IMG/VR virus record: IMGVR_UViG_3300031658_000078
Span: 1-28,061 of that record
Origin: a virus
Length of the DNA stretch: 28,061 nt
Reading direction: 5' to 3' (one strand)
Below the pieces are notes generated by a model that searched no databases, was not told where the DNA came from, and saw only the letters and a list, made by a program, of their open reading frames with translations. This document shows positions 85-17,864 of this stretch, one piece after another. A program made the position numbers and the translations under genes. Each line of letters starts with the position of its first letter. The stretch's first letter is position 1.

Positions 85-1113
85 TTAGGCCTTTGCGTCA
101 CTGTCTGCGTCACTGGCTGCTTCGCTGGCTGCTTCGCTGTCTGCTTCAAGCTGAGTGGCAACCGTGATTGGCACTGGAGAGAGACCTAGCGACTCAAGGT
201 TTACGCCAGACTCATGAGCGTCGCGAAGCGCGGAGCGCAAGGCAGCGGCATTAGACAGCTGCTGCACTGCTGTCTTGTTGGCTTTGCGCATCTCCTCTAG
301 GGCATTCATTGCCTCGCTGATGTCAGTGACAACCCACTTCAATTCAAACGGCAGGGTCAGGTCAACGGTCTCGTGAAGGTGAGTGACTCGGGCAACTTCA
401 TAGCTGCCCTTATGCTCGACAACCACAATGCTGTCTATCGCCAGCGGTGTTGATGCCTTGTAAGTGAAGGTACGGTTCTCCTCGTGCTTGCTGTATGGAG
501 GAGAAGAAGAACGAGGACTGACCACGTCCAGCGCTACTTCAACCAGATGGACCGAGCCAGCTTCGGCCTGGAGTGCAAGGATGGTTCGTTGTGCTTTGTT
601 CATTTCGATGTGCTCACAGTTTGGGTGGGATTGAATGAAGGCCTGCTCAATATCGAAGCGAGTAGGATGTTTTTTGTAGATAGTATCGGACGCAATTTTC
701 ATCCGGCTCTCATGGTAAGAGGTACTGTCCTCATAGCCGTCGAAGAAGGTCTCGCTTTCTGCCTCCTCCTTAGCAAGCTCGGCTACTTTGGTTTCCTCGC
801 GAGCCGCTGCGGCGTAATAAGAATTCAAGCAGCTCTTGCAAACATCGTGATGGTCGAGCCTTCGTTGGTCGCGCGCAACAAACCAATGCTGACCTGGGTC
901 CACGTCGCTAATGATGAAGCCGCACCAGAGCGCCGCCTTGGCTTTGGTCACCTGCCATGTTCGAGATAACGTCATCTGCTTAAGACGTGCCGCGCTAGCG
1001 TGACCCGGCATGAAGATGTGAACCCTGGAGTGATTGCTGCCACGGTACATGACGACCTCGCGAGCAAGCTTTGCTCCTGTAGCTGAGGCGGACAGACGCG
1101 TCGGAGCGCTCAC
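85..1113 (-). CDS. Phage protein of unknown function, last gene of leftward operon
   Basis: This 342-aa protein is not recognised. Near residues 85-95 it has a DHHDVCKSC cluster, a possible metal site, followed by a charged Glu/Lys-rich helical stretch. The C-terminal half has a beta-rich part (around SIVVVEHKGSYEVARV) and then a helical tail. The end is an Ala/Ser/Asp/Glu low-complexity tail of imperfect EAASEAASDADSD units, encoded by short tandem repeats at about 96-150. The start is GTG at 1113, which overlaps the TAG of the upstream gene, so translation is probably coupled. It is the promoter-distal gene of the operon, just before the terminator. Function unknown. Confidence 0.75.
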   Translation of the reverse strand: MSAPTRLSASATGAKLAREVVMYRGSNHSRVHIFMPGHASAARLKQMTLSRTWQVTKAKAALWCGFIISDVDPGQHWFVARDQRRLDHHDVCKSCLNSYYAAAAREETKVAELAKEEAESETFFDGYEDSTSYHESRMKIASDTIYKKHPTRFDIEQAFIQSHPNCEHIEMNKAQRTILALQAEAGSVHLVEVALDVVSPRSSSPPYSKHEENRTFTYKASTPLAIDSIVVVEHKGSYEVARVTHLHETVDLTLPFELKWVVTDISEAMNALEEMRKANKTAVQQLSNAAALRSALRDAHESGVNLESLGLSPVPITVATQLEADSEAASEAASDADSDAKA

Positions 1114-11376: not shown

Positions 11377-11404
11377 TAGACTTAAACCTACTGCACTGTA
11401 TAAT
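11377..11404 (+). promoter_or_regulatory. Promoter before the RNA genes and late region
   Basis: TAGACT (-35, 11377-11382), a 16-base spacer and a perfect TATAAT (-10, 11399-11404) follow directly on the primase-helicase stop. It would transcribe the small ORF and the tRNA cluster, and possibly the terminase and late genes. Confidence 0.65.
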
Positions 11405-11579: not shown

Positions 11580-11654
11580 ACACCGTAGGTGCAATGGCAA
11601 CACACTGCCCTTTCACGGCAGATTTAGCGGGTTCGATTCCCGCACGGTGTACCA
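11580..11654 (+). tRNA. tRNA-Glu (TTC)
   Basis: The acceptor arms ACACCGT and ACGGTGT pair perfectly. The anticodon arm is CTGCC-CTTTCAC-GGCAG with anticodon TTC. The T arm is GCGGG-TTCGATT-CCCGC, and the 3' CCA is encoded. The D stem is short (GTG/CAC). The fold is otherwise standard and should be functional. Confidence 0.9.
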
Positions 11655-11834: not shown

Positions 11835-11903
11835 GCTCGCCAGTCTGACAGGGTAGGTACCATCCAAGAGATGGCAAGCAGGGTTCGAGTCCCTGGGCGA
11901 GCA
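11835..11903 (+). tRNA. Abnormal short tRNA-like gene
   Basis: The acceptor stem is perfect (GCTCGCC / GGCGAGC) and the T arm is canonical (CAGGG-TTCGAGT-CCCTG). The length is only 69 nt. The D region is reduced (TCTGACAGGGTAGG, no clear 4-bp stem). The anticodon arm has CCAT/ATGG around CCAAGAG, read as AAG, or CCATC/GATGG around five bases. CCA is not encoded (ACC follows). Amino acid identity is uncertain. Confidence 0.55.
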
Positions 11904-11928: not shown

Positions 11929-12513
11929 ATGACTAAGGCAGCACTGAAGAAGGCTCGCGCAAGAGTCAAGCCTAGGACGAGCAACGGGACACCGGCAGTC
12001 AAGTGGCGACCGGAGTTCATTGAGCGAGTCAGGGGCGCAGCCTTCCAGGGCGCTACTCAAGCTGAGATAGCCAAGATGCTGGGTGTAGCAGTAACAACAC
12101 TTCATCGCTGGGCAAAGGGTAAGCCCGAGTTCAGCAAGGCCCTAAACGAAAGAGACGAAGCTGATGCGCGTGTAGAGCGTTCACTCTATGAGCGAGCCAT
12201 TGGTTACGAGTACATCGAGACCACCAGCGAAGCAGAGTGCGTAGCATTCAATGAGGATGGCGAGCAGGTACCCGTCGACAGTCCATTCGCGTACAGCTCT
12301 GAGATTGTAATGGTGCCGAAGAAGCAGGTAACCAAGAAGGAAGCGCCAAGCACGACGGCGCAAATATTCTGGCTTAAGAACCGCAAGCCTGAGTCCTGGC
12401 GTGACAAGTCTGTTGTAGAGCATGAAGACCCACAGAAGCGAGTAGCTGCATTACAGATGGGCCGCAAGCGCATAGCTGACGCACGCAAGAAGCGCGAGTC
12501 CAAAGAGTCATGA
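11929..12513 (+). CDS. terS: Terminase small subunit
   Basis: This 194-aa protein has a basic N-terminus and then a helix-turn-helix, AFQGATQAEIAKMLGVAVTT plus LHRWAKGKPEF (about residues 43-75), the DNA-recognition part of small terminases. The C-terminal TTAQIFWLKNRKPESWRDK string is a hallmark of this TerS group. The protein recognises the packaging site on phage DNA and recruits the large subunit. AGGAAG precedes the ATG. Unusually, the large subunit is not next; about 3.8 kb of small genes intervene. The stop overlaps the next small gene (ATGA). Confidence 0.85.
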   Translation: MTKAALKKARARVKPRTSNGTPAVKWRPEFIERVRGAAFQGATQAEIAKMLGVAVTTLHRWAKGKPEFSKALNERDEADARVERSLYERAIGYEYIETTSEAECVAFNEDGEQVPVDSPFAYSSEIVMVPKKQVTKKEAPSTTAQIFWLKNRKPESWRDKSVVEHEDPQKRVAALQMGRKRIADARKKRESKES

Positions 12514-12686
12514 GCAAAGCCGAAGCACTCTCATGTCACCACTGCGAATGCACAGACCAATCTGTGCTTGAGTTCTGCGATGACTGCGAGGCCGCATTCT
12601 GCGAGGACTGCGAGGTAAACATCGCCCCAGGCGAAGGCCACTGTCCCGAAGACCATTTATTCCAGCTGCCAGAAGAGAGCAGCTAA
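12510..12686 (+). CDS. 58-aa double zinc-finger protein
   Basis: This short ORF overlaps the TerS stop (ATGA). Its pattern is C9-x2-C12-x10-C23-x2-C26-x4-C31-x2-C34-x10-C45-x3-H49, enough ligands for two zinc ions and reminiscent of a B-box-type cross-brace. The rest is acidic. Seven of the eight possible ligands are cysteines in a 58-aa protein, so the fold is very probably metal-held. The function is unknown. Small zinc proteins of this kind often bind other proteins, but nothing here proves it. Confidence 0.7.
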   Translation: MSKAEALSCHHCECTDQSVLEFCDDCEAAFCEDCEVNIAPGEGHCPEDHLFQLPEESS

Positions 12687-12703
12687 CAACCAAGAGAGAG
12701 AGC

Positions 12704-13234
12704 ATGAACGAGAAGCAAACACCAGATATTGAGCGCAACTTCGAGAGCCAAGAATTTAACGCGGCAATGGAAGACGTGTTCGAGGCACTAGACCAAAGTG
12801 AACTTCCTACCGAGGTCGGTACCGACGTACCTGACGGCGTACCGCTGTCAGCCATTGCGGGACATCGGCTTGTGTTGGTCGAGGATGCCTTGCGTGTTGA
12901 CAAAATCGTAAAGGAACGAATAGCGGCACGGGTAGACCTACTAATCCGCTCCGTCTGCCAGACGCTGGCAAGCAAGCCAACGGCAGCCATGTCAGAGCAA
13001 GGCCGCATCGTTGCGATTATAGCTGGGTCCAGCAGCCTGCTCGATGAGCTGTCACGGAACAACACGAAGGGTACCGACGCCAACCAAGAAGAGGTCGACC
13101 GGAAGGTTATCTTGCTCTGCTGTCAATTGATTCACTTAGCAGTAGGTGGTGACATCACACTGGGCTATGAGCCACCGCTGTCTCCTAAGCAAGACGAGGA
13201 CTCCGACCTCGACTCCGACGGTTACGAAGAGTAA
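12704..13234 (+). CDS. Hypothetical phage protein
   Basis: This 176-aa protein is mostly helical and acidic. A central helical part (VKERIAARVDLLIRSVCQTL) is followed by LLDELSRNNTKGTDANQEEV and a hydrophobic helix VILLCCQLIHLAVGG. The end is an acidic SPKQDEDSDLDSDGYEE tail. The ATG follows an AGAGAGAGC ribosome binding site. No family is recognised. Its place after TerS and its helical, acidic nature would allow an accessory packaging or head role, but this is not supported by any motif. Confidence 0.75.
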   Translation: MNEKQTPDIERNFESQEFNAAMEDVFEALDQSELPTEVGTDVPDGVPLSAIAGHRLVLVEDALRVDKIVKERIAARVDLLIRSVCQTLASKPTAAMSEQGRIVAIIAGSSSLLDELSRNNTKGTDANQEEVDRKVILLCCQLIHLAVGGDITLGYEPPLSPKQDEDSDLDSDGYEE

Positions 13235-13244
13235 GGCCTGACTG

Positions 13245-13604
13245 ATGAGTGGTGAAGCAGAAATAAGCAGAATGGAACGCGCGCTGACTCCGTTGCACAT
13301 GGTAGTCGAGCCCCCTGGACAGGACCCCACGCCTGAACAGGTCGACGAATGGATGATGGAAGTGTCGGAGGTGTGCCAAACGGACATCGCGACACACCAA
13401 GCCAGCGATGCGTTGCAGGGCGCTCTGCTTCACCTAGTCAGGGGCATGGATGAGCGGACAGCAACGCTCATCATTTTACGTGAGACGCTGCGTGAGACGG
13501 TAGAGCTAAAGGCTCGACTCATTCAGTTCGTCAACACAGACAACAAGCGAATCATTGTCCCAGGAGCCCATGCATTAGCAGAGGCCCTGGGCAGGAGAAA
13601 CTGA
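13245..13604 (+). CDS. Hypothetical helical protein
   Basis: This 119-aa protein has PTPEQVDEWMMEVSEVC near the N-terminus and a long helical middle (TATLIILRETLRETVELKA). It is predicted to be all-helical. The ATG at 13245 follows the previous stop by ten bases. It is not recognised and has no similarity by eye to the paralog-like family that follows it. Confidence 0.7.
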   Translation: MSGEAEISRMERALTPLHMVVEPPGQDPTPEQVDEWMMEVSEVCQTDIATHQASDALQGALLHLVRGMDERTATLIILRETLRETVELKARLIQFVNTDNKRIIVPGAHALAEALGRRN

Positions 13605-13605
13605 T

Positions 13606-14034
13606 ATGACTGGCAAGGCAAAGAAAGCGAAGGAAAACGCACCAGCTACCGAGACCCTGTATTGCTTCACCAACGGAGCCATGCAAAAGCTGCTTCTGGT
13701 CGCAGATGAAGAGACCGGAGTTGCTACCGACAAAATCACCGGCAACGAACTCAACAGCGATGACATCTCTACATGGGAGTGGGCATCTAGCCGCAGTGAC
13801 GCAATGGCTGGCGCGATTGCCCTTGAGCGCGTGCGTATCGCCGAGCTTGCAGCGACACAGAAAGCGCACCGCGCTGAGATTACCTTACTGCAGGCAGCGA
13901 TGGCCGAAGAAGAAGCTGAAGAAGGCAGCGGCACCAGCGGCACCAGCGGCACCAGCGACGCCAGCGGCACGGCAGCCACGGCCGCTCCCGGCTCAACCGA
14001 CGAGCTAACCGAAGGTGGTGGGCCTGCCGAGTAG
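13606..14034 (+). CDS. Small protein of repeated family, member 1, with SGT-repeat tail
   Basis: This 142-aa protein begins (after a Lys/Ala-rich leader) with the strand TLYCFTNGAMQKLLLVADEE. It continues through WEWASSRSDAMAGAIALE and a long coiled-coil-like helix (RIAELAATQKAHRAEITLLQ). The plan of an aromatic first strand, small beta part, W followed by A-rich helix start, then long helix is shared with the genes at 14092, 14406, 15296 and 15578. The tail is GSGTSGTSGTSDASG, encoded by GGCACCAGC tandem units. GGAG precedes the ATG. Function unknown. Confidence 0.7.
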   Translation: MTGKAKKAKENAPATETLYCFTNGAMQKLLLVADEETGVATDKITGNELNSDDISTWEWASSRSDAMAGAIALERVRIAELAATQKAHRAEITLLQAAMAEEEAEEGSGTSGTSGTSDASGTAATAAPGSTDELTEGGGPAE

Positions 14035-14042
14035 CAATAGCA

Positions 14043-14072
14043 GCCCCTGGCTGTGATGAAGCAGCCAGGGGC
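14043..14072 (+). other. Strong intergenic hairpin
   Basis: GCCCCTGGCTG and CAGCCAGGGGC form a perfect 11-bp stem with an 8-nt loop between two small genes. No T-run follows, so it is not a classical terminator; it may be a processing or stability element. It also argues against the GTG/ATG at 14053-14058 being a translation start. Confidence 0.65.
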
Positions 14073-14091
14073 GTCAATGGGATTGGCAGTT

Positions 14092-14415
14092 ATGAAAGTA
14101 ACCTACTACAGCATCCGAGCATTTAAGCCCGGCACACCAACTTCGGAAATCGAAGTCATGCAAATAGTGCTCGACGTCGACGAGGACGGCATCGTCACCA
14201 ACAATGGCACCGTTGTCGGCAACGACCTCAGTGAGTGGTTGGCCGCTAACTTCTGGGGGCCAACCGTAAACGAAGCCATTGCCACCGCTATCAAGCACCA
14301 GAGCAGGGCCTTAGATTCACTCTCTCGTGACGTTGCAATAACCGCCAGCAGACTTGTTTCGTTGCGCGAGTTAGCTTCACTCCACGCAGAGCCGGAGTCG
14401 CCCACATGCCACTAG
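14092..14415 (+). CDS. Small protein of repeated family, member 2
   Basis: This 107-aa protein starts MKVTYYSIRAFKPG. The ATG at 14092 lies beyond the hairpin, which hides the longer in-frame start. It shows an aromatic first strand, a beta-rich middle with IVTNNGTVVGNDLSEWLAAN, then PTVNEAIATAIKHQ leading to a helical tail. By eye it aligns best with the neighbour at 14406: YY near the N-terminus, a W-L-A-A string and an A-I-x-A-x helix at matching spacing. The end overlaps the next start by ten bases. Function unknown. Confidence 0.7.
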   Translation: MKVTYYSIRAFKPGTPTSEIEVMQIVLDVDEDGIVTNNGTVVGNDLSEWLAANFWGPTVNEAIATAIKHQSRALDSLSRDVAITASRLVSLRELASLHAEPESPTCH

Positions 14416-14747
14416 AGCCAGTGAGCTATTACGTTGTCGACACAGAGAGTGGCAACTTCGACGTCCTGCCTCACCACGACGTCCACCTGAAAGACATCCG
14501 CATCCATAAGCTGGAGTTATTCAAAGACCACAAGGGCTTGCTTCACTTGGTTGACGGCTCAGCTGTCAGCGAACGATGGCTAGCTGCAGGTCGATACGCG
14601 GAGTCACCACGAGCAGCCATAGTCGCGGCGCTTAACTTTGTGCGAGCGCAGCAACCATCGATACGCCAAGCGCTGGCAGCTAACCTCACTCGAGGCAAGA
14701 AGCTGTCTGCGTTACTTGACTACCACACGTGGGGGACCGAAGGATGA
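14406..14747 (+). CDS. Small protein of repeated family, member 3
   Basis: This 113-aa protein begins MPLEPVSYYVVDTESGNF. It shares with member 2 the YY strand, a hydrophobic strand then a turn (GLLHLVDGSAVS), RWLAAGRYAESPRAAIVAAL and a C-terminal helix. It overlaps both neighbours, which suggests a coupled operon. No catalytic or metal motif is seen. Likely a duplicate that has diverged strongly; function unknown. Confidence 0.7.
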   Translation: MPLEPVSYYVVDTESGNFDVLPHHDVHLKDIRIHKLELFKDHKGLLHLVDGSAVSERWLAAGRYAESPRAAIVAALNFVRAQQPSIRQALAANLTRGKKLSALLDYHTWGTEG

Positions 14748-14947
14748 GCAACGGCAGAATGGAACGCTGCACACACGGCGCGTACATGCCAGCGAATGGG
14801 TTAGCGCGATTGCCGCCGGGGCAGGGCGCACCAGCACGCCACCTCTGCGCTGTCTGCGCGTACGCACAGGGGCACCACGACGGAATGCTTGAGCAGTTGA
14901 CCGCAACGAAGACAGAAGACCGGCCAGGAGGCAGTCACAGTGAGTGA
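14744..14947 (+). CDS. 67-aa Cys/His protein, copy A of a pair
   Basis: The start is ATG 14744, overlapping the previous TGA (ATGA). It contains RCTHGAYMP near the N-terminus and HLCAVCAYAQGHHDGM in the middle, that is C-x-H ... C-x2-C-x-Y-x2-G-x4-M. This arrangement is repeated in the next gene (CMHNKS ... CLVCTYSRGWDAAM). Four Cys/His ligands could hold one zinc. Not recognised. Confidence 0.65.
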   Translation: MSNGRMERCTHGAYMPANGLARLPPGQGAPARHLCAVCAYAQGHHDGMLEQLTATKTEDRPGGSHSE

Positions 14948-15296
14948 CCCCTTGTATCAAGCCATATGCATGCACAACAAGAGCATCACGGCCAAACTGC
15001 CCCTGAGTGACTGCTTGGTCTGCACGTACAGCCGAGGCTGGGATGCAGCAATGGCGCTTACCGAAGCATGCAATGGCGTCGCCAAGCTTGAGTCTGGCCC
15101 AGCCCGTAGCGACGCGTCCGTCATCAATCAGTACGATGTCATCAACAGCGACAACCTCGGGACGCTTATCAGCTTGGTCAATCGAAGACTAAGGCATGAC
15201 TGGGTGACGGTAGGCAGTGTGAACGCCTCATGGACCGGCACCCGACTGGAGTACACCCAGACGATGACCTCACACGTAAAGCGGGAGGTGGACTGA
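14940..15296 (+). CDS. 118-aa Cys/His protein, copy B of a pair
   Basis: The GTG start at 14940 has AGGAGG upstream, and the gene overlaps the previous one by 8 bases. Residues 10-40 (ICMHNKSITAKLPLSDCLVC, then TYSRGWDAAM) mirror copy A. The extra C-terminal half is unrelated (DNLGTLISLVNRRLRHDWV and a beta tail). The C-terminal part, with NLGTLISLVNRRL and a final THVKREVD, resembles small phage proteins with a strand-helix layout, but no family is assigned. Confidence 0.65.
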   Translation: MSDPLYQAICMHNKSITAKLPLSDCLVCTYSRGWDAAMALTEACNGVAKLESGPARSDASVINQYDVINSDNLGTLISLVNRRLRHDWVTVGSVNASWTGTRLEYTQTMTSHVKREVD

Positions 15297-15565
15297 TGCT
15301 CCGCTGGTATCGCTTCGACGTGGAATGCCCAACACCCAAGCTTCACTCAGTAGACGTAGAGCACGCCACTAACGGCAGACTGCTGTTGAAGGGCGGCAAG
15401 TTCATCAACCGCAGAACATCCAAGCAGGGCGAATGGCACCCGACGCTGGAAGAGGCAGCATACGACGCCAGAAACAAGCTGGCACGGAAAGTTACCTCAG
15501 CCCAGGCGAAGCTGTCATGGGCTAGACAGACCCAGTACGAGTTCGACGAACACTACACGCCCTAG
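15296..15565 (+). CDS. Small protein of repeated family, member 4
   Basis: This 89-aa protein begins MLRWYRFDVECPTPKLHSVD. The ATG at 15296 overlaps the previous TGA. It contains RLLLKGGKFINRRTS, then EWHPTLEEAAYDARNKL and a helical end. It aligns by eye with the next protein: KLRTVSVVHETPTRLYV there against KLHSVDVEHATNGRLLL here, then NFIKRAS against KFINRRT. The pair therefore looks like a tandem duplication. Function unknown. Confidence 0.7.
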   Translation: MLRWYRFDVECPTPKLHSVDVEHATNGRLLLKGGKFINRRTSKQGEWHPTLEEAAYDARNKLARKVTSAQAKLSWARQTQYEFDEHYTP

Positions 15566-15577
15566 AGGAGCAGCAAC

Positions 15578-15874
15578 ATGGCTACTGATTCAATCGACTG
15601 GCACGGCATTCAACGAGTCTGGCACGCGTACGACCACGGAAAGCTCAGGACAGTGTCCGTCGTGCATGAGACGCCGACGCGGCTGTATGTCAACGAGACC
15701 AACTTCATTAAGCGAGCATCACCTGGGTGCTTGTTCTTTCGGACTGAGATGGAAGCAACCAATCATGAGATTGGACGCATGCAACAAGTCATCGAAGATA
15801 ACCGAGCGGAGACGGCCATTCTCTTGCGGCACGTAGCTAGACTTGAGGGGGCCATAGGCAAGTCAGCGCAATGA
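15578..15874 (+). CDS. Small protein of repeated family, member 5
   Basis: This 98-aa protein starts MATDSIDWHGIQRVWHAY after a GAGGAG ribosome binding site. It shares the strand-turn-strand core with member 4 (RLYVNETNFIKRAS) and an E-A-x-x-x-E/D helix start (EMEATNHEIGRM). It ends in a longer coiled-coil-like helix (DNRAETAILLRHVARLEGAI), as in member 1. Its stop overlaps the next start (ATGA). Function unknown. Confidence 0.7.
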   Translation: MATDSIDWHGIQRVWHAYDHGKLRTVSVVHETPTRLYVNETNFIKRASPGCLFFRTEMEATNHEIGRMQQVIEDNRAETAILLRHVARLEGAIGKSAQ

Positions 15875-16350
15875 CCATCATAGGCATAGGCAATGATGGG
15901 GCGACCGCGTACGTCATCAGGGACGAGGTCTACTCGGCACAAGAAGAAAGGGAGCAGTACCTGCTGGCGGCAGTACGTGAATTAGAGTGGCCCCGACCAG
16001 ACCTGACGGGACTGACCCTTGTGAAGGACGAGCCCAAGCCGGTCACAGCAGACGACGTCGCGGCATTAATCAAAAGCGAACAGAAGGACGACCCAATGAC
16101 TAAGACAATCCAAACCCGACCCAACCTTAGGGCGCGACTGGCCCTGGCTCTAGCTGCCGGAATGAGGACGGCAGGCGAGGGCATTGGCTCCGTCATGCGT
16201 AGCAGCTCAAAGCTTTCACCGGAAACCCTGAGGCCAGCGGTCGGCGGCTCGTTACGCGGCACCGGCTCACTCGGCGGCAAGCGACGCAAATTTAAGCCAC
16301 GTAACCGGGTACACTCTGGCTCGATAAGAGAGCGACGCGCGAGCAAGTAG
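15871..16350 (+). CDS. Hypothetical protein with basic C-terminus
   Basis: This 159-aa protein has an N-terminal half with TIIGIGNDGATAYVIRDEVY and a charged helix. A linker follows, and then a very basic, Gly/Ser-rich end (RGTGSLGGKRRKFKPRNR). The basic tail could contact DNA. An internal ATG at 16096 could give a second, shorter product. It lies directly before the large terminase, nine bases from its start. No family is recognised. Confidence 0.65.
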   Translation: MTIIGIGNDGATAYVIRDEVYSAQEEREQYLLAAVRELEWPRPDLTGLTLVKDEPKPVTADDVAALIKSEQKDDPMTKTIQTRPNLRARLALALAAGMRTAGEGIGSVMRSSSKLSPETLRPAVGGSLRGTGSLGGKRRKFKPRNRVHSGSIRERRASK

Positions 16351-16358
16351 AGGCAGCC

Positions 16359-17864
16359 TTGATAACCGAAGAAAAGAAGGACGACATCGAGAAGGAGCTG
16401 GACCGGCTCCTGTCGGAATGCTACGGATACCCAGAGGACTACGCGAAGGCCGCGTTCCCCTGGGGCGAGAAGGACGGACCGCTTGAGCACAACACGCTGC
16501 GTGAGTGGCAGTTTGGTTATCTGAGGGAACTGGGCGAAGAGATACGGGCTCGAGGCTTTGATGGCATCGAGCCCGTTGACCCCATCCTCGACAGCACATC
16601 CAGCGGGCACGGCATCGGCAAGTCGGCACTGACCGGCATCCTGACCAAGTTCATCCATGACACCAGACCCCATAGCTCTGGCATCGTCACAGCTAACACG
16701 TCAACCCAACTGAAGACACGCACCTGGGCCGAGCTGGGCAAGTGGCACCGTATGTCACTCACCCGTCACAGGTCGGACTACTACGCGTCGCGTGGCAACA
16801 TGTCGCTGGTCAACGTCTGGTACCCTGAGTCATGGCGAGTTGACGCGTTCACTTGCCGTGAAGAGAACAGCGAGGCCTTCGCAGGAAACCACGCCAACAG
16901 CGCCACTCCGTTCTATATCTTCGATGAGGCCAGCGCGATACCGGCTAAGATTTGGGAGGTGGCTTATGGTGGACTAACTGACGGCGAGCCGATGTGGCTG
17001 TGCTTTGGCAACGGCACTCGCAACAGCGGCACGTTCTACGAGACCCACAATCGAAACCGCGACATGTGGCGTCACCGAACCATCAGCTCGATGGACGTCG
17101 AAGGCACCAACCACAAGCTGCTGCAGTCTTGGATTGACGCCTGGGGCTGGGATTCTGACTTTGTTAAGGTCCGAGTGCGGGGCTTGTTCCCTAACAGCTC
17201 ATCGCTGCAGTTCATCGACACCGACTTGGTCGAGCATTGCATGGGCGTCAACCGTGGCTTTGAATTGCGCGACCCGCTCATCTACGGCGTCGACGTTGCG
17301 AGGTTCGGTGATGACAGCTCGGTCATAGTTAAGCGCCGAGGCCGGAAGGTCCTGCCTATCGACGAGGTCTACCAGAAGGGACGAACGACGCAGCTGGTTG
17401 CCCGCATCGCCGCGATGGCCCGACAAGAACAGCCAGACGCAATATTTGTCGATGGTGGCGGTGTTGGCGGAGGGGTCATAGACCTACTGACAGAACTGAA
17501 CGTTGCCAACGTGATTGAAATCAACGGGGCCAGCAAGCCCACCGGCAGAGAGTGCGCCAACATGCGCGCTCAGTGTTGGTGGAACATGCGTGAGGATGGC
17601 CTAGCCAACGGGCATGACTTCCCGCCAGACGAGGATTTGCGCGCAGACCTGACGCAGATGGAGTTCGGTTACCGCATATCAGACAACCGAATTCTGCTAG
17701 AGCGAAAGGACGACGCCAAGAAGCGCGGCATTCATTCACCTGACAGAGGTGATGCAGTTGCGCTAACATACGCGCTACCGGTCGGCCTACGGGCTGCGTC
17801 TAGTCGGGAGCTTGGCGGGAATGCCAGAGCAGGCAGACCACCAAACCTAGTGACCGACAACTAG
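16359..17864 (+). CDS. terL: Terminase large subunit
   Basis: This 501-aa packaging motor has an N-terminal ATPase with Walker A-like SSGHGIGKSA (81-90) and Walker B FYIFDE (185-190). The C-terminal RNase H-like nuclease has D312 in VDVARFGDD, D365 in FVDGGG and D465 in SPDRGDA. It pumps DNA into the prohead through the portal and cuts it. The start is TTG at 16359 with GAGG upstream; no ATG is available before the ATPase core. Length is normal. The next genes are the portal module. Confidence 0.92.
   Translation: MITEEKKDDIEKELDRLLSECYGYPEDYAKAAFPWGEKDGPLEHNTLREWQFGYLRELGEEIRARGFDGIEPVDPILDSTSSGHGIGKSALTGILTKFIHDTRPHSSGIVTANTSTQLKTRTWAELGKWHRMSLTRHRSDYYASRGNMSLVNVWYPESWRVDAFTCREENSEAFAGNHANSATPFYIFDEASAIPAKIWEVAYGGLTDGEPMWLCFGNGTRNSGTFYETHNRNRDMWRHRTISSMDVEGTNHKLLQSWIDAWGWDSDFVKVRVRGLFPNSSSLQFIDTDLVEHCMGVNRGFELRDPLIYGVDVARFGDDSSVIVKRRGRKVLPIDEVYQKGRTTQLVARIAAMARQEQPDAIFVDGGGVGGGVIDLLTELNVANVIEINGASKPTGRECANMRAQCWWNMREDGLANGHDFPPDEDLRADLTQMEFGYRISDNRILLERKDDAKKRGIHSPDRGDAVALTYALPVGLRAASSRELGGNARAGRPPNLVTDN

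Follow-up and report, generated by a model that had tools for sequence, protein, structure and literature searches.

The window analysed here, the whole 28,061-base contig of an uncultured virus record, carries an island of small genes (12510-16350) between the genes for the small and large terminase subunits, TerS and TerL. It represents a genuine expansion in tandem, of considerable age, of a phage family that is widespread, and does not amount to a new category of system. Exactly five of its genes, those starting at 13606, 14092, 14406, 15296 and 15578, are homologous, and their common plan is a predicted set of strands, an aromatic-x-x-[S/T]-x-x-x-A cap and a predicted long helix. The best overall explanation, to which we would give a probability of roughly 0.4, is that the island is accessory cargo which expanded in tandem, and that the copies are protein binders retargeted to different partners. 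The analysis unites several PHROG clusters in a single superfamily, which can be recognised by a motif, and describes an unusual tandem expansion of that superfamily. The features referred to below are as follows.

11377..11404, plus strand: promoter-like site TAGACT-16-TATAAT (10/12, promoter scan), preceding two tRNA genes and TerS
11929..12513, plus strand: TerS, terminase small subunit, left border (phrog_309, E 1.1e-41)
12510..12686, plus strand: 58-aa Cys/His-rich, zinc-ribbon-like protein (ORF and cysteine pattern; no family match)
12704..13234, plus strand: 176-aa acidic orphan, outside the five (AUC 0.33 for the family)
13245..13604, plus strand: 119-aa helical orphan, outside the five (AUC 0.53 for the family)
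13606..14034, plus strand: family copy 1, 142 aa, with LYCF strand, WASSRSDA helix cap, helix and low-complexity tail (similarity to 14092; motif)
14092..14415, plus strand: family copy 2, 107 aa, with YYSI strand, SEWLAA, WGPTVNEA helix cap and long helix (AlphaFold model; leave-one-out)
14406..14747, plus strand: family copy 3, 113 aa, with YYVV strand, SERWLAA and YAESPRAA helix cap (pair with 14092; motif; leave-one-out)
14729..14947, plus strand: 72-aa C-x-H ... C-x-x-C protein with CAVCAYAQG, first of a second, apparently duplicated pair (phrog_3941, weak, E 3.5e-4)
14940..15296, plus strand: 118-aa protein with CLVCTYSRG, second of that pair, with an extra C-terminal part (motif)
15296..15565, plus strand: family copy 4, 89 aa, with WYRF strand and EWHPTLEEA helix cap (external profile; model)
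15578..15874, plus strand: family copy 5, 98 aa, with VWHAY strand, KLRTVSVVHETPTRLYV core and FFRTEMEA helix cap (pair with 15296; AUC 0.82)
15871..16350, plus strand: 159-aa orphan with a basic tail, outside the five (ORF, profile tests)
16359..17864, plus strand: TerL, terminase large subunit, right border (phrog_2, E 4.6e-34; phrog_5902, E 3e-49)

Judged from its sequence, the phage is a podovirus, because it encodes TerL, a portal (phrog_332), a protease, a major head protein, tail genes and internal virion proteins, and because the nearest annotated relatives of its TerL are those of Vibrio podoviruses, Pseudomonas phage HU1, AF, Tr60_Ab31 and P22-like Salmonella phages. Both borders of the island were also found by tblastn, in which TerS matches the annotated TerS of Pseudomonas, Salmonella and other phages, and TerL matches annotated TerL genes. 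The identity of TerL to its best relatives is only about 45-53%, and no close relative was therefore available for comparison. Directly 5' of TerS lie genes for tRNA-Glu (ttc, 11580-11654) and tRNA-Leu (aag, 11835-11903); Pseudomonas phage HU1 has two tRNA genes at a comparable position.

A previous sequence-only reading had counted eleven small genes between TerS and TerL, and eleven plus-strand ORFs are indeed found there, tightly packed, with intergenic gaps of -19 to +57 bases. Stops and starts overlap (the first 4 bases of 12510 are shared with the end of TerS), forming a contiguous operon from TerS to TerL, in which a promoter and terminator scan found no internal promoter or strong terminator. 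The site at 11377..11404 is the sole plus-strand site from 8000 to TerL, and is weak as evidence for a promoter because sites of this kind are no more numerous than chance predicts. By codon usage the annotated frame is preferred in nine of the eleven genes, with 12510 and 14729 ambiguous; alternative upstream starts are possible for 14092 (GTG at 14053) and 15296 (ATG at 15230). Pfam gave no convincing match for any of the eleven, and scans of the island proteins against PHROG, Pfam and NCBIfam returned weak matches only, with none to lysis families (holin/spanin, endolysin). Matches to PDB sequences were judged to be chance. In some relatives a lysis cassette, recognised by eye, lies beside TerL.

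It had also been proposed that the island grew by duplication, and that 15296 and 15578 align along their cores, as do 14092 and 14406 around WLAA. Both alignments are real. The first sets KLHSVDVEHATNGRLLL against KLRTVSVVHETPTRLYV and the second SEWLAA against SERWLAA, and their local-alignment p values, calculated against a null of reversed natural small phage proteins, are 2.5e-3 and 7e-4 respectively, followed by 4e-3 for 13606/14092. These are the top three of the 55 island pairs, all of them neighbours and all within the five. When gene order is permuted, the similarity between neighbours proves to be higher than chance would give (p = 0.0002), and the top four pairs are all adjacent. 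The most similar proteins are thus immediate neighbours, as tandem duplication predicts. Identity between the copies is very low, at about 20%, and no DNA-level repeat is left in the island, from which it follows that the duplications are old. In our judgement it is highly probable that the five share ancestry with one another as well as with a widespread phage family, and that they were duplicated in tandem.

The helix-cap motif [WYF]xx[ST]xxxA was chosen after inspection of the five, and is found once per protein, in the middle of the protein, in all five copies and in none of the six other island genes; the background frequency of a mid-protein occurrence among natural small phage proteins is 4%. 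The cap aligns with the PTKEEA columns of the widespread family. Structure prediction was run on 14092 and 15296, and both models have strands followed by one long helix. The AlphaFold model for 14092 has a pLDDT of 78.8 and a pTM of 0.59, while that for 15296 is of low confidence (pLDDT 59). The two were folded separately and have BFVD matches in common (A0A7S5R7K5, S0A020, A0A517YZI6 and UPI0009C21C42), but none of these has an E-value below 0.001. PDB fold matches (partial SH2, TM about 0.25) were judged to be chance.

The structural matches of the two models are small uncharacterised phage proteins, which provided the route to the wider family. Two of the BFVD entries come from phiAxp-3 and Cellulophaga phi17:2, and their proteins are linked by sequence. 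The phiAxp-3 protein, gp30, belongs to PHROG 13631 (E 7.5e-51) and has relatives in phages of Achromobacter, Brevundimonas, Pseudomonas, Synechococcus, Sinorhizobium, Rhodobacter, Rhizobium, Burkholderia, Delftia, Olleya and Cellulophaga; 63 further family loci came from scanning viral contigs. The family had been thought to be undescribed, which is not the case, since distant relatives occur widely and have already been grouped in PHROGs 13631 and 25384, both without function annotation. Literature searches returned nothing on this small-protein family or on split terminase genes. A match was found in 51 of 52 records, nearly all single-copy, in a count that strongly diverged copies would escape. 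Two good copies are present in the Aeromonas phages A18P4 and AhMtk13b, as adjacent pairs, and on the contig L137, whose second copy, used as a query, retrieved nothing but itself. Because there is usually one recognisable copy and sometimes two, five in tandem is unusual among the records seen.

The gp30 gene, ADP65_00030 of Achromobacter phage phiAxp-3 (L110:11978-12340), serves as the type for PHROGs 13631 and 25384, with a WYRY first strand, a V-x-x-T-P-K-G-V-W core, an A-[YH]-P-T-K-x-E-A cap and a long helix. The window copies resemble this type in their aromatic first strand, helix cap and, as predicted for 14092 and 15296, long helix, with profile recognition in both directions, but they are far more divergent, less basic and five in tandem, and the alignment shows that the TPKG turn and the RK-x-RQ basic helix start of PHROG 13631 are absent from them. 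The Aeromonas pairs (L112:18044-18648 and L125:1474-2123) are two neighbouring genes with the same plan and so a precedent for a tandem pair, although with two copies and not five, and adjoining exonuclease and exoribonuclease genes and not terminase. A gene at L017:5497-5775 has the same plan (motif QYHDTWDLA), a genome neighbourhood similar to that of the window and a related TerL; it differs in being a single copy just upstream of TerS, outside the TerS-TerL interval. Elsewhere in the window (85-1113, minus strand) a 342-aa protein matching phrog_13551 has a weak family-profile score (E 0.04), which is probably chance.

For the strongest test of the five-gene grouping, profiles were made solely from window proteins and run against a set of 1,318 non-redundant ORFs, which includes 57 family members. 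The five together recover one common family, with an AUC of 0.948 and family members in 16 of the 20 top ranks; without 15296 the values are 0.90 and 12/20. Because it was the model of 15296 that led to the family set, this protein is not an independent case (alone it gives an AUC of 0.92 and 12/20), whereas the trio 13606/14092/14406 is independent, and places family members in 10 of the top 20, as does 13606 with 14092. Singly, 15578 has an AUC of 0.82, and 13606 fails to recover the family (AUC 0.39). The profile of the six other island genes gives an AUC of 0.52 with no family member in the top 20, and 200 control profiles, each of four random small proteins, never exceeded 5/20 or an AUC of 0.87. 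In leave-one-out searches among 3,131 proteins, 13606, 14092, 14406, 15296 and 15578 rank 48, 3, 31, 6 and 38 respectively. An external family profile, built without any window protein, ranks 15296 first of 503 small proteins, and this is the closest of the five to the widespread family. The claim of the sequence-only reading that a single plan is common to these five genes, and to no others of the island, is supported.

These results also bear on the alternative that the five are not homologous and merely share a secondary structure of sheet then long helix. Identities of about 20% would fit such convergence, as would the weak E-values, about 0.01 to 1, that the five give singly against external profiles. 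None of the five copies is matched directly by the PHROG 13631 model, even at a threshold of E 10, and tblastn of the island proteins against phages gave nothing, or weak partial matches of E 2 or worse (15296); a weak match of 15296 to phrog_27634 was not found in relatives. Against convergence, random control profiles never match the recovery of the family, the other island genes fail to recover it, and an adjacency effect with p 0.0002 is not expected from convergence. The window-only profile tests therefore largely reject convergence, which we regard as very improbable.

Homology to the wider family does not in itself indicate a function. Family members elsewhere are strongly basic, with a mean net charge of +6.8 and a conserved basic helix start, RK-x-RQ, and their neighbours in other phages are mostly DNA-metabolism genes (dCTP deaminase, DNA ligase, topoisomerase, exonuclease and thymidylate synthase), and not terminase. 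These features would also fit nucleic-acid binding: the family would bind DNA or RNA through the basic helix, and the copies would regulate or protect nucleic acid. For the window copies the basic residues are largely lost, the net charges being +4 for 15296, 0 for 15578 and 14406, -6 for 14092 and -13 for 13606, and we consider this function quite unlikely.

The same neighbours count against a role in DNA packaging, in which the small proteins would be accessory factors, kept between TerS and TerL to modulate terminase. Their position inside the packaging operon could be read in this way, as could the overlapping stops and starts and the lack of an internal promoter or strong terminator in the scan. 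In Rhizobium phage N17, however, one family member lies three genes before TerL. A family-profile search of 43 related records found no members. A packaging function seems improbable.

The TerS-TerL interval itself is not as exceptional as had been supposed. Among 65 loci that were found with the window TerL and have an identifiable TerS, 52 have the two genes side by side, and in 13 a stretch of 0.8-8.4 kb lies between them; these counts are approximate because the TerS profiles were built from genes next to TerL, and they leave out 35 further loci in which the profiles did not place TerS. The genes in the interval vary from phage to phage, and the interval is thus a recurrent cargo slot in this clade and not a unique rearrangement. 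Several relatives (L014, L023, L025, L028, L035, L067 and others) have an insertion at the same place as the window, but with contents that look different, being by eye membrane, HNH-like, fibre-like or lipoprotein-like genes. The comparison of the interval across relatives, suggested earlier, finds other cargo in the slot, and the family-profile search found no further members of the family there. In one relative (L076:7049-8675), a 358-aa protein and a 185-aa protein that is by eye methyltransferase-like lie between TerS and TerL.

Another reading is that the cargo is near-neutral: small genes of the early class would have entered the packaging operon, then duplicated and drifted, with no common present function. 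The quite different cargo of relatives is consistent with this, as are the very low identity between copies and the low-complexity tail on 13606. Five intact frames, coding-like codon use and a retained helix-cap motif imply selection, however, and we judge drift of this kind to be unlikely.

The preferred explanation is that the island is accessory cargo, which was inserted between the two terminase genes. Its main component would be the five diverged copies, each with an N-terminal β-sheet and then a long C-terminal helix, together with the duplicated pair of zinc-motif genes. The packaging operon would express the copies, as intracellular proteins that are soluble, since none of the five contains a strongly hydrophobic segment. 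In each copy the sheet and helix may serve to bind a partner protein, and duplication followed by strong divergence, visible in net charges from +4 to -13, would retarget the copies to different partners. These partners would most likely be host or competitor proteins, suggesting take-over of the host or anti-defence. We put forward this protein-binding mechanism only tentatively; under it, the copies would probably allow the virus to diversify a tool for binding proteins. An anti-defence role is a guess; the general Pfam, NCBIfam and PHROG scans gave no relevant match of the island proteins to a described anti-defence family. It is a more speculative and unlikely proposal that one scaffold, which serves singly in many unrelated phages, was here multiplied in tandem inside the packaging operon to give differently targeted inhibitors for anti-defence or host take-over. 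If the copies do have different partners, the island would be a natural experiment in scaffold diversification, and a compact candidate set for anti-defence and host-takeover screens.

The second pair, 14729 and 14940, consists of adjoining genes that rank fourth among island pairs by Z-score. They have in common the motif C-x-V-C-[AT]-Y-x-x-G and an upstream C-x-H, and look like a duplicated zinc-binding pair; C-x-V-C-[AT]-Y-x-x-G occurs in none of 3,130 ORFs of the fetched loci. A resemblance of the C-terminus of 14940 to DUF1737 had no support from Pfam. A small zinc-ribbon protein is encoded just upstream of TerL on a Planctomycetota contig (L104:8575-8754), and resembles, by eye, Lar-type restriction alleviation proteins.
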